Origin: a virus
IMG/VR virus record: IMGVR_UViG_3300044956_000318
Coordinates: 1 to 27,516 of that record
DNA: 27,516 nucleotides
Reading direction: 5' to 3' (one strand)
The notes beneath the pieces are model-generated. The model saw nothing but the letters and a program-made list of their open reading frames with translations, searched no databases and was not told where the DNA came from. Shown here one piece after another: positions 23,186-25,604 of the stretch (position 1 is its first letter; each line of letters begins with the position of its first letter). The position numbers were made by a program, and so were the translations under genes.

Positions 23186-23533
23186 ATGCAGGAGCTAAAA
23201 ACAGAAATTTACGAAGACGAAGTCTTACCAGAAACAAAACTTTGGAGAGCAGTAATTCAACGAGCATTCGAGGATGTTATTTATCCCGGAATGGAACGAT
23301 CGTTAATTATGTTTAAATATCAAGCTCACTTGTGGTTTATAAATAATAGTGAAAACTTTAAGATCATTTGTAACTTAGCAGATTTAAACGATAAAACAGT
23401 TAGAGAAAAATATCTTAAAATGGTCGACAACGAACAAATTTATTTCACTAAAGAACAAATTAATTACATTAACTGGCGAAAAAAATACAATGAACGAAGA
23501 AACATTGACAACGGCACAGGAAACTTCTTATAA
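23186..23533 (+). CDS. Conserved phage protein, 115 aa
   Basis: A soluble, helical protein: MQELKTEIYEDEVLPETK, LWRAVIQRAFEDVIYPGM, FKYQAHLWFINNSENFKIIC, NLADLNDKTVREKYLKM. The pattern W-x-x-V-I-x-x-A followed by A-x-x-W-[IL] and C-x-[LF]-A-x-[LD] is one I know from small phage proteins in early regions; its function is unsettled. The preceding hairpin may control it. The last 44 nt overlap the HNH gene in another frame. Confidence 0.65.
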   Translation: MQELKTEIYEDEVLPETKLWRAVIQRAFEDVIYPGMERSLIMFKYQAHLWFINNSENFKIICNLADLNDKTVREKYLKMVDNEQIYFTKEQINYINWRKKYNERRNIDNGTGNFL

Positions 23534-24020
23534 AAATTGTCCAAAATGCAAACAAAAAAAATTATCAACACTTTTTTATAAAAGAGGTGATCGAGAAACC
23601 CTTGATTCTTGGTGTAAGGATTGTAAAAATAAGGAACAAAAACAAAGATGGTCTTTGAATTCAATTGCTTTTGTAAGACGAACTTATCAAGGATTAAATA
23701 GACAACGTAAAAATTCAAAAAGAGCCGAATGTTTAATTTCATTAAGTGAGTTTTTAGATGTTTGGCAAGAACAATATCAAAAATTTGGAATGCGGTGTCC
23801 GTACTCTGGAATTGAAATGACGCACACGTTAGGTGTTGGTAAAACTTTATATAATATTTCTATTGATCGGATTGATAGTACAAAACCCTACATAGATGGT
23901 AACCTTGTATTTTGCTGTGCTATTATTAATAGCATGAAAAATAATTTGAATTTGAAAGATTTTATAATGATTTGTAAGCTCATTGCTAAAAATAATATGA
24001 TTGAGCATTTAACCACTTGA
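23490..24020 (+). CDS. HNH endonuclease with N-terminal zinc finger
   Basis: A 176-residue protein. NCPKCKQKK (C17, C20) and WCKDCKN (C42, C45) form a zinc finger, followed by a basic linker. MRCPYSGIEMTHT and YNISIDRIDSTKPYIDGNLV (124-140) make the beta-beta-alpha-metal nuclease core; the usual first His of HNH is replaced by Ile-Asp-Arg-Ile-Asp, as in the related IDR-type subgroup, and NSMKNNL completes the site. It is probably a free-standing homing nuclease, common in phages and mobile on its own. Its 44-nt overlap with the previous gene suggests recent adaptation of the border. Confidence 0.8.
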   Translation: MNEETLTTAQETSYKNCPKCKQKKLSTLFYKRGDRETLDSWCKDCKNKEQKQRWSLNSIAFVRRTYQGLNRQRKNSKRAECLISLSEFLDVWQEQYQKFGMRCPYSGIEMTHTLGVGKTLYNISIDRIDSTKPYIDGNLVFCCAIINSMKNNLNLKDFIMICKLIAKNNMIEHLTT

Positions 24021-24067: not shown

Positions 24068-24193
24068 ATGGAAAAACTATTTATAATACCTTCTTATAGT
24101 GATGTTAAAGCATTTTGGAGCAATTATTTTAATAATATTCAAAAGTTTTACACAGATGCTGCAGAAGATTTATTTAAAACATTTAAAAAATAA
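24068..24193 (+). CDS. 41-aa amphipathic miniprotein
   Basis: Starts MEKLFIIPSYSDVKAFWSNY and continues FNNIQKFYTDAAEDLFKTFKK. Residues 12-41 form one long amphipathic helix with aromatic residues at regular intervals. Ribosome-binding site AGGAG lies 10 nt upstream, and a perfect palindrome precedes it. Helix type and operator resemble a shortened phasin (granule-surface protein) of alphaproteobacteria, but I cannot confirm homology. It may instead be a membrane-surface peptide. It is a monocistronic unit, isolated from the chains on either side. Confidence 0.6.
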   Translation: MEKLFIIPSYSDVKAFWSNYFNNIQKFYTDAAEDLFKTFKK

Positions 24194-24211: not shown

Positions 24212-24247
24212 GTCTATTGAGCATTTATCGTCTACTGAGCATACATC
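24212..24247 (+). repeat. Two tandem 18-bp repeats
   Basis: GTCTATTGAGCATTTATC (24212-24229) is followed at once by GTCTACTGAGCATACATC (24230-24247), identical at 15 of 18 positions. They lie upstream of the acidic miniprotein pair, at a distance suitable for an activator or repressor. The helical phase (18 bp) is not an integer number of turns. Confidence 0.65.
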
Positions 24248-24275
24248 GCGAAAATTAAGGCTTTTACGGGGCTTT

Positions 24276-24287
24276 ATCCCATATAAT
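24276..24287 (+). promoter_or_regulatory. Possible promoter with ATCCCATA overlapping TATAAT
   Basis: A perfect TATAAT (24282-24287) overlaps ATCCCATA (24276-24283), the reverse of TATGGGAT, found at other promoters here. No good -35 box is seen at 15-18 bp, so activation, perhaps through the tandem repeats upstream, would be needed. The first acidic gene starts 33 nt downstream. Confidence 0.4.
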
Positions 24288-24319
24288 TTTTTGTATATTT
24301 GGCCTCGTGGAGGTAGATT

Positions 24320-24475
24320 TTGGGAAAGAAAAAAAAAGAAACAATCCAAGACATTATCGACAGAATTGAAGATGATTTAATTGCTTTACGAGATAAGGTA
24401 ATAGAGCTCGAAAATGATGTTGAAAATGACGAGGATGAAGATAAGAACCAAGACGAAGACGAAGACGAAGAGTAA
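24320..24475 (+). CDS. Acidic coiled-coil miniprotein, copy 1
   Basis: A 51-residue ORF from a TTG start, supported by GGAGG 6-7 nt upstream. A basic tip (GKKKKET) leads to a coiled coil (IQDIIDRIEDDLIALRDKVI then ELENDVE) and a tail nearly all Asp/Glu (DEDEDKNQDEDEDEDEE-like). The next gene has the same length and plan. Acidic phage miniproteins often mimic DNA and inhibit host nucleases or nucleoid proteins; that role is a hypothesis here. The gene is absent from searches with ATG only. Confidence 0.6.
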   Translation: MGKKKKETIQDIIDRIEDDLIALRDKVIELENDVENDEDEDKNQDEDEDEE

Positions 24476-24498
24476 AATAAAAAAAATAGGAGAATACA

Positions 24499-24654
24499 AT
24501 GAGTGAAGACAACAAAAACGTTATAGAACAACTACAAGAAAAAATCGAAAAACTAGAATCTGACGTAGAAAATATTAAGTCAGTTCTTGAAATACAAGAT
24601 GAAGATGAAGATGAAGATCTGAAAGATCAAGACGAGGACGATAAGGACAATTAA
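24499..24654 (+). CDS. Acidic coiled-coil miniprotein, copy 2
   Basis: A 51-residue ORF with ATAGGAG upstream. Heptad-like VIEQLQEKIEKLESDVENIK is followed by an acidic tail (IQDEDEDEDLKDQDEDDKDN). Length, coiled coil and tail match the preceding gene, including the shared D-V-E-N at the end of the coil, so the pair is a tandem duplication that diverged. The two could form a heterodimer. A hairpin starts 4 nt after its stop. Confidence 0.65.
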   Translation: MSEDNKNVIEQLQEKIEKLESDVENIKSVLEIQDEDEDEDLKDQDEDDKDN

Positions 24655-24657
24655 CCT

Positions 24658-24780
24658 ATTGCCTGCATTAATTTAGGCAATTATTGAACGCAGGGGTGTG
24701 GACAACGGATCACGGACTGTGATATAAATAACACACCTACCTTTCATTAGTTATGGTGGGCTGATTCATTCAGTCCACCA
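24658..24780 (+). ncRNA. Candidate structured RNA with three hairpins
   Basis: Stem 1: ATTGCCT (24658-24664) with AGGCAAT (24675-24681). Stem 2 is nested: GGGTGTG (24694-24700) with CACACCT (24732-24738), enclosing ATCAC (24709-24713) with GTGAT (24719-24723). Stem 3: TGGTGGGCTGA (24754-24764) with TCAGTCCACCA (24770-24780), 11 pairs including one G:U, loop TTCAT. No T-tract follows stem 3. The G:U pairs favour a plus-strand RNA, either the 3' UTR of the acidic genes or a separate RNA. Confidence 0.5.
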
Positions 24781-24865
24781 TCAAAAAAATCAATTAAATC
24801 ACAAATTTCAGCCACATATATAGATACATTAGACCTTTTCATGTCTCTACATAAAAATAAACTTA

Positions 24866-25097: not shown

Positions 25098-25604
25098 ATG
25101 GAAACTTTAGTTCAAGAAGTTAAAGCAAATTTGAAAGGGGCTGAGCTTTTAACTGGTAAACAACGTGCATTTGCAGAATTTTATGTTGCTAATTACCCTG
25201 ATTGTACAAAACAAGAAGCTGCCCGTCACGCAGGTTATGCCGAAACAACCACTGGTAAATGGGGAAGTCTATTAACAAACCCAGATAAGTTTCCTCATGT
25301 TGTTGCGTATATTGAAAGATTGCGTGAGACAAAAACAAATACCTATAAGGATTATTTAAGACATTTAAAAAGATTAGACTCACTTTCAAAAAAAGCCGAA
25401 GATAAAAACCAACTTGCTGCGGCTATTAATGCAGAATTTAGGCTTGGGCAAGCAGCAGGCTTTTACATTGATCGAAAAGAGATTAAAGTGCAAGACTTGT
25501 CAGCGATGACAAAAGATGAATTAATCAAAACAATCAATGAGCTTAAAGATGAGATATCGTTTGAAAAAGTCCTTGAAATCGAAGAAAACAAAAAATCTTC
25601 TTAA
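25098..25604 (+). CDS. terS: Terminase small subunit
   Basis: A 168-residue protein with the Terminase_2 pattern: LTGKQRAFAEFYVANYPDCT, KQEAARHAGYAETT (helix-turn-helix), then HVVAYIERLRETKTNTY and a long helical oligomerisation region ending in a charged tail (SAMTKDELIKTINELKDEIS). It recognises the phage packaging site and presents DNA to the large subunit, which is outside the window. No Shine-Dalgarno sequence precedes the ATG; a promoter ends 9 nt upstream. The gene stop lies inside a terminator hairpin. Confidence 0.85.
   Translation: METLVQEVKANLKGAELLTGKQRAFAEFYVANYPDCTKQEAARHAGYAETTTGKWGSLLTNPDKFPHVVAYIERLRETKTNTYKDYLRHLKRLDSLSKKAEDKNQLAAAINAEFRLGQAAGFYIDRKEIKVQDLSAMTKDELIKTINELKDEISFEKVLEIEENKKSS

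Follow-up and report, generated by a model that had tools for sequence, protein, structure and literature searches.

What do two adjacent genes for 51-residue proteins, each combining a short helix with a strongly acidic tail, do for the phage that carries them, and do their products act as one unit? The pair studied here, which we call A and B, lies in a 27,516-base IMG/VR record (the window). Compared with pelagiphage HTVC023P, this record has a DNA polymerase 59% identical over its whole length and a small terminase subunit (25098-25604) 44% identical over 85%, which makes the window a distant HTVC023P-type relative.

Two small genes of one design

A and B are placed between an endonuclease-like ORF and the small terminase gene, and each has its own ribosome-binding site:

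23490-24020: endonuclease-like ORF flanking the A/B region upstream, matching endonuclease VII/HNH PHROGs
24309-24314, plus strand: Shine-Dalgarno of A, GGAGGT, with the TTG start 5 nt further on; kept before ATG in close relatives
24320-24475, plus strand: ORF A (family A), 51 aa, TTG start; basic N-terminus MGKKKK, coiled-coil helix at about 9-31, acidic tail 32-51
24488-24493, plus strand: Shine-Dalgarno of B, AGGAGA; AGGAG is common to contigs L068, L063 and L061
24499-24654, plus strand: ORF B (family B), 51 aa, ATG start; coiled-coil helix at about 8-32, acidic tail 33-51

The original prediction, made from this DNA alone, described two 51-aa genes sharing a plan of coil then acidic tail, and both are indeed real genes. 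The 3-4 hydrophobic spacing is clean in both helices, and the heptad contrast of the segments, which were chosen by the analyst, was reached by 23 of 20,000 shuffles for A and 101 of 20,000 for B. AlphaFold, run on single chains, gave one helix each (A 9-40, B 3-35), predicted with good confidence as far as residue 30 or so; confidence is low in the tail, and the helix of A extends into it. The tails had been called almost pure Asp/Glu; they are acidic, but that purity was overstated, as a hand count gives about 70% D/E (14/20 residues in A, 13/19 in B). Net charge is -15 for A and -16 for B, and the calculated pI of 4.05, presumably the lower limit of the program used, is read as about 4 or lower.

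Both helices contain self-complementary g-e' pairs (D19-R24' and K26-E31' in A; K15-E20' and D22-K27' in B), from which we infer that A and B each form a parallel homodimer. Each protein is thus probably a short, self-pairing helix with a disordered, negatively charged tail.

A further ORF of 41 aa (MEKLFIIPSYS...) lies ahead of A at 24068-24193; it has relatives in close contigs and a weak, sub-threshold match to the BSD domain (E 0.0018).

The helix is under purifying selection and the tail varies

A profile scan of viral contigs returned 97 stretches related to A, the best 80 of which were used, and 11 contigs with B. After duplicate removal these best 80 gave 66 distinct A loci and, counting the window's, 58 distinct A proteins that are 44-64 aa long; there were seven distinct B proteins. 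Over 25 codons of the helix, dN/dS between window A and 15 relatives was 0.03-0.21 in the 10 comparisons with finite dS; in the remaining five dS was saturated and dN was 0.17-0.76, with L068 as the outlier. Between the window and L068, the B helix differs by six synonymous and no non-synonymous changes (93% nucleotide identity), and against L061, L062, L065 and L160 dS was saturated with dN 0.06-0.16. The helix is under purifying selection, and the tail is variable yet acidic. These helix dN/dS values rule out that A and B are repeat junk, and the coil is kept in the relatives of both families, which are not reduced to low-complexity tails.

Among the 58 A proteins, which are related so that residue counts are not independent, D11 and I12 (position g, window numbering) are invariant; D14, R15, I16, R24, K26 and E31 are kept in 57, and E18 (D in two, the window included), D19 and E29 in 56. 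All four g-e' residues of A are on this list (D19 in 56/58; R24, K26 and E31 each in 57/58). Besides the a/d core, several outer helix positions are near-invariant, D and E hardly interchanging there, and the core accounts for only part of the helix conservation. These invariant outer residues suggest a specific partner, since a polyanion alone would not require them.

The tails of A proteins vary in length (5-33 residues as split by script) and in residue order and remain acidic, with a D/E fraction of 0.57-1.0; the median is 0.65 in family A and 0.72 in family B. Cysteine is present in 46/58 A proteins, just after the helix in the rows shown; window A has none, which makes its tail atypical.

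Compared with the neighbouring gene, A is 63-68% identical to window A in L055 and L058, where the small terminase is 48-50% identical, and 44% identical in L057, against 50% for the terminase. In two of these three contigs, then, conservation of the miniprotein exceeds that of the neighbouring terminase. As a test of paralogy, hhalign aligned A with B at a probability of 38% and E 3e-4, over 15 columns only.

A is accessory in its phage group and present in other phage types

Seventeen contigs carry a small terminase at least 92% identical to the window's; L018 starts inside that gene and was left out, and A is present in all 16 others by hand count. B is also present in two of these 16, identical to window B in both. 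Among 26 contigs with a terminase 59-71% identical (many of them near-duplicates), each holding about 1.5 kb or more upstream of that gene, shorter contigs having been left out, A was found in none by hand count. Nor was it found in 14-kb pieces of HTVC023P, HTVC027P, DSL-LC04 and 023Pt_psg01, and the corresponding gap of HTVC023P contains no acidic ORF. A is accessory in its phage group. Small acidic ORFs occur in some relatives without A (e.g., L021, L044); they are not consistently present and match neither the A nor the B profile.

Family A spreads over HTVC023P-type relatives, T4-like phages and further contig groups. In T4-like contigs, A and B lie among tail-fibre-like, virion-structural or baseplate genes: L064, T4-like by its neck gene, has both among tail-fibre-like genes; L165 and its relatives have the gene order of L064 with A alone; and L068 has both and a baseplate-wedge gene. 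L061-type contigs have B alone, with a neighbour gene common to L068. In the further groups, A lies beside an exonuclease-like gene and others, some of these genes being common to the window's group.

Two kinds of neighbour were noted. A gene for an Hsp20-like chaperone adjoins A at L175:3094-3540, L219:4348-4794 and L241:2798-3220; the L175 copy matches phrog_432 (4.6e-28), and the L219 and L241 copies were assigned by BLAST. Directly after B, L061:5203-5382 and L068:4198-4371 encode a small protein with an apparent single membrane helix and a strongly basic C-terminus; a possible acidic-tail/basic-tail pair formed by B and this protein would be worth testing.

Among 84,980 cellular genomes scanned, the sole match lay on a 5.6 kb contig of a Chitinophagia MAG (RFVO01000098.1, L241). 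A cellular origin was rejected, as this is phage sequence: of its 19 matched ORFs, 16 have their best match, at 87-100%, in phage contig L225. The phage genes on it reflect either binning contamination or real infection.

No description of the A/B family was found in the phage isolate records, named family libraries or literature searched. A and B, whole or as helix only, had no credible match among 50,697 phage records, a weak negative because the BLAST low-complexity filter was on; for the helix of B, nothing beyond Bacillus SPO1-like records came up, with E between 1 and 10. Pfam, PHROGs, PADLOC and NCBIfam gave no convincing match, only weak coil-like ones (four sequences for PADLOC and NCBIfam). 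Specifically, B matched phrog_9414, of unknown function, at a best E of 0.0012 (four of seven B members at E 0.01), and A matched phrog_3671 in 4/41 members (best E 0.0022). Similarity between coils alone may explain the matches of B to the defence model SduA (E 0.0056) and to phrog_473, a head and packaging family (E 0.053). Profile searches of the PDB with A and B returned nothing below E 0.04. The literature search returned no paper combining DNA mimic, phage, acidic tail and coiled coil. On HTVC023P, the main text of PMC9599517 contains neither "acidic" nor "DNA mimic", and PMC6811365 concerns phages of freshwater SAR11 of other types than this one.

Promoter-like and other signals around the genes

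Three noncoding elements were mapped around the pair:

24213-24248, plus strand: two imperfect tandem repeats (18 bp, 15/18), private to this phage
24273-24299, plus strand: promoter-like element with -35-like TTTATC(CCA) and alternative -10s, TATAAT at 24282-24287 and TATATT at 24294-24299 (15 bp after TTTATC)
24753-24781, plus strand: terminator-like hairpin (inverted repeat) downstream of B, 92% complementary with a 5-nt gap, in a region conserved in relatives

The pair had been proposed to follow a repeat-bearing promoter. Both 18-bp copies are there (24213-24230 and 24231-24248, 15/18 bases alike), as is a TATAAT at 24282-24287 lacking a -35 at the usual distance. No other tandem pair in the window reaches this likeness when the spacing is 15-30 bases, and a comparable pair arose in 5 of 300 shuffles of the surrounding 2.5 kb region. 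At the same place in 12 close relatives, judged by eye, eight have a hairpin-like sequence and four have neither. Repeats as a conserved operator are thereby ruled out, being absent from the relatives examined. The promoter proposal is only partly borne out: a promoter-like box before A is conserved, and the repeats are not supported as part of it.

This box, TTTATCCCA, occupies 24273-24281, immediately before TATAAT, and precedes A at all 12 distinct loci of the window's group, the window included. A sister group has TTGATCCCA before A at 16/16 distinct loci. Overall, one of these -35-like boxes is found at 28 of 63 informative A loci and neither at 35, three further loci being cut. In the sister group, TTGATC is followed after 17 bp by CATAAT or CATACT at 12/16 loci, the other four having a weak -10; in the window's group, the choice is between TTTATC with TATATT at 15 bp and TATAAT without a -35, judged by a sigma-70-type criterion of 16-18 bp. 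The box has one exact copy in the window; in the 14 sister-group loci scanned, out of 16, exact copies stand nowhere but before A. At several loci, a GC-rich hairpin follows the A stop at a distance of 5-12 bases. The promoter-like box and, in some loci, this hairpin point to A as a putative transcription unit of its own in part of the family. L068 instead carries TATAAATA upstream of A, which we take to resemble T4 late promoters.

A conserved noncoding block (24690-24785), with inverted repeats and the terminator-like hairpin, runs from B (from A in relatives) to the small terminase gene. The hairpin was not in the output of the terminator scan, and Rfam gave no match at gathering scores. 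Read as an RNA structure, the block shows two-sided changes in only 2 of 22 predicted pairs; the block could be a protein-binding or packaging site.

For the stretch before the small terminase gene of HTVC027P, PMC12753301 reports high expression of gp33 and gp34 early to middle, and of gp30 early and late. None of the three matches the A profile, so the comparison with A is one of gene position only and not of orthology. The 46-aa gp34 (L148:5094-5234) is a possible functional analogue of A despite lacking an A-profile match; that paper annotates it by a Pdase_C33_assoc match.

A tentative decoy function and its rivals

Our leading reading, held tentatively and somewhat short of an even chance, is that A and B share one design and are separate accessory miniproteins of the phage, each a docking coil with a polyanion tail that would work, much like T7 gp5.9, by mimicking DNA or RNA or acting as a decoy. 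Each would form a short parallel homo-oligomeric coiled coil, most simply a dimer; its conserved outer face would bind a single specific partner protein, whose basic nucleic-acid-binding surface the disordered polyacidic tail would then cover and block, during host take-over or counter-defence. A decoy is suggested by the design itself, a conserved docking coil joined to an interchangeable polyanion, and the target may be a nucleic-acid-binding protein. Against this reading counts the finding that 35 of the 63 informative A loci lack a conserved box, and the main point against a take-over role is the late, tail-side gene context in T4-like phages.

That context belongs to the main rival, a late assembly factor. 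Here A and B would serve either as a chaperone of tail-fibre or head assembly or as a core protein packaged in minor amounts, and during morphogenesis their acidic tails would bind counter-ions or basic partners. We consider this unlikely, though it deserves serious weight. The neighbours of A and B in T4-like contigs are tail-fibre-like or virion-structural genes on either side, with a neck gene further on, or else baseplate genes nearby; together with the late-like TATAAATA of L068, they suggest late expression and an assembly role there. An Hsp20-type gene adjoins A in L175 and in four sister-group loci (the PHROG test being made on L175 only), and the prohead core protein gp67 of T4 has a D/E tail. 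On the other side, A is missing from all 26 less close HTVC023P-type relatives counted by hand, and in the window's group its place is ahead of the small terminase gene and not next to genes for head or tail. In the T4-like pelagiphage Mosig, an unnamed protein occupies the gp67 slot right after the portal, so A and B need not fill that slot. Expression timing probably differs between phage types, judging by these upstream sequences and gene neighbours.

We find it improbable that A and B instead regulate transcription or translation, with the helix binding RNA polymerase or a ribosome-associated factor and the acidic tail repelling nucleic acid. The conserved docking face and the promoter-linked units in part of the family would fit such a role, as would the early expression of genes in the corresponding HTVC027P stretch (PMC12753301); similarity to a known regulator did not rise above noise, and nothing singles out this target.

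Whichever function holds, A is an accessory family with a clear architecture and a strictly conserved helix that reaches other phage types. If the decoy reading is true, A and B would give a way into host take-over by these phages that can be tested directly.

A and B are separable, and B was probably gained by transfer

The least probable account, and a very unlikely one, is that A and B are an obligate heterodimer, the new paired design originally proposed. In its favour, the two stand in tandem in three phage lineages (the window's, that of L063/L064/L066, and L068), and shifting their registers by one heptad gives four attractive contacts (three with another shift). Paired in register, A and B meet in no attractive contact and in five of like charge, of which one lies in the tails; each homodimer has four attractive contacts. 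The two genes are also not always together: A lacks B in 14 of the 16 closest relatives, and B lacks A in 5 of 11 B contigs, within 4.7-10 kb of sequence each. Across the distinct A loci from the best 80 of 97 stretches, B was seen at 3 of 66.

The origin of B in the window can be read from one further feature:

24463-24600, plus strand: segment close to T4-like contig L068, covering the A tail end, the A-B spacer and the B helix (one alignment)

Window B and the A-B spacer match L068, and the helix of window A matches its own group. The match of B and the spacer to this T4-like contig makes it probable that the window's lineage acquired B by transfer; in the one alignment of window and L068, the joints would fall in the GA-rich DNA encoding the acidic tails. 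Synonymous divergence between the two B genes (dS 0.49) does not make the transfer recent.

This leads to a wider and more speculative proposal, which we rate as doubtful: a mobile class of phage decoys, each a docking coil with a swappable polyacidic tail, the tail DNA serving as a recombination joint and the genes passing between unrelated phages. If this is true, the class would comprise modular nucleic-acid mimics directed at different host proteins, with tails and partner genes swapped, and the window's gain of B from a T4-like phage would exemplify such a joint.

Comparison with known systems

A known parallel in size and charge is T7 gp5.9, a 52-aa protein of pI 4.0 that forms a parallel coiled-coil DNA mimic and blocks RecBCD and MukBEF (PMC9836394, PMC7617805). 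The charge pattern of A and B had been said to suit DNA mimicry; it is compatible with it, and gp5.9 shows that a natural coiled-coil DNA mimic of this length exists. Like gp5.9, A and B are strongly acidic, about 50 aa long and short coiled coils, by heptad test, predicted helix and charge. A is accessory in its group, and gp5.9 is non-essential according to its record note. The gp5.9 dimer is described in PMC9836394 and PMC7617805, whereas the dimers of A and B are deduced from g-e' pairs only. The geometry differs too: gp5.9 has N-terminal beta strands and acidic residues along the coil, without an acidic tail, and unlike gp5.9, A has a basic N-terminus. This difference, acidic residues on the coil in place of a tail, counts against a gp5.9-type decoy. 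BLASTP produced no alignment between gp5.9 and A or B, and at E 0.01 none of 41 A and 7 B members was listed with PHROG 9014, the gp5.9 family, which gp5.9 itself matches at 5.6e-40. By these tests, A and B are not relatives of gp5.9.

On the side of the assembly reading stands T4 gp67 (PIP, the prohead core protein, PHROG 1064), present at about 340 copies per core according to PMC9958956. Like A and B, it is a small protein with an almost pure D/E tail. BLASTP of gp67 against A aligned, with gaps, only the end of the helix and the tail (49 columns at 41% identity; E 0.017 for one comparison). The N-terminal part of gp67 is rich in helix; unlike those of A and B, it has no heptad pattern (17,337 of 20,000 shuffles reach its contrast). 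No scanned A or B member was listed with PHROG 1064 (41 A and 7 B members, E 0.01; gp67 itself 1.7e-30). T4 gene 67 lies directly after portal gene 20, whereas the mapped loci have A and B ahead of the small terminase gene or with tail genes around them, never directly after a portal gene.

Synthetic coiled-coil DNA mimics are, to our knowledge, designed molecules without an acidic tail. Like A and B, those directed at restriction enzymes use a coiled-coil scaffold, as mentioned in PMC9836394. If A and B are decoys of the tail-type polyanion kind, they would represent a second natural design beside the coiled-coil mimicry of gp5.9.
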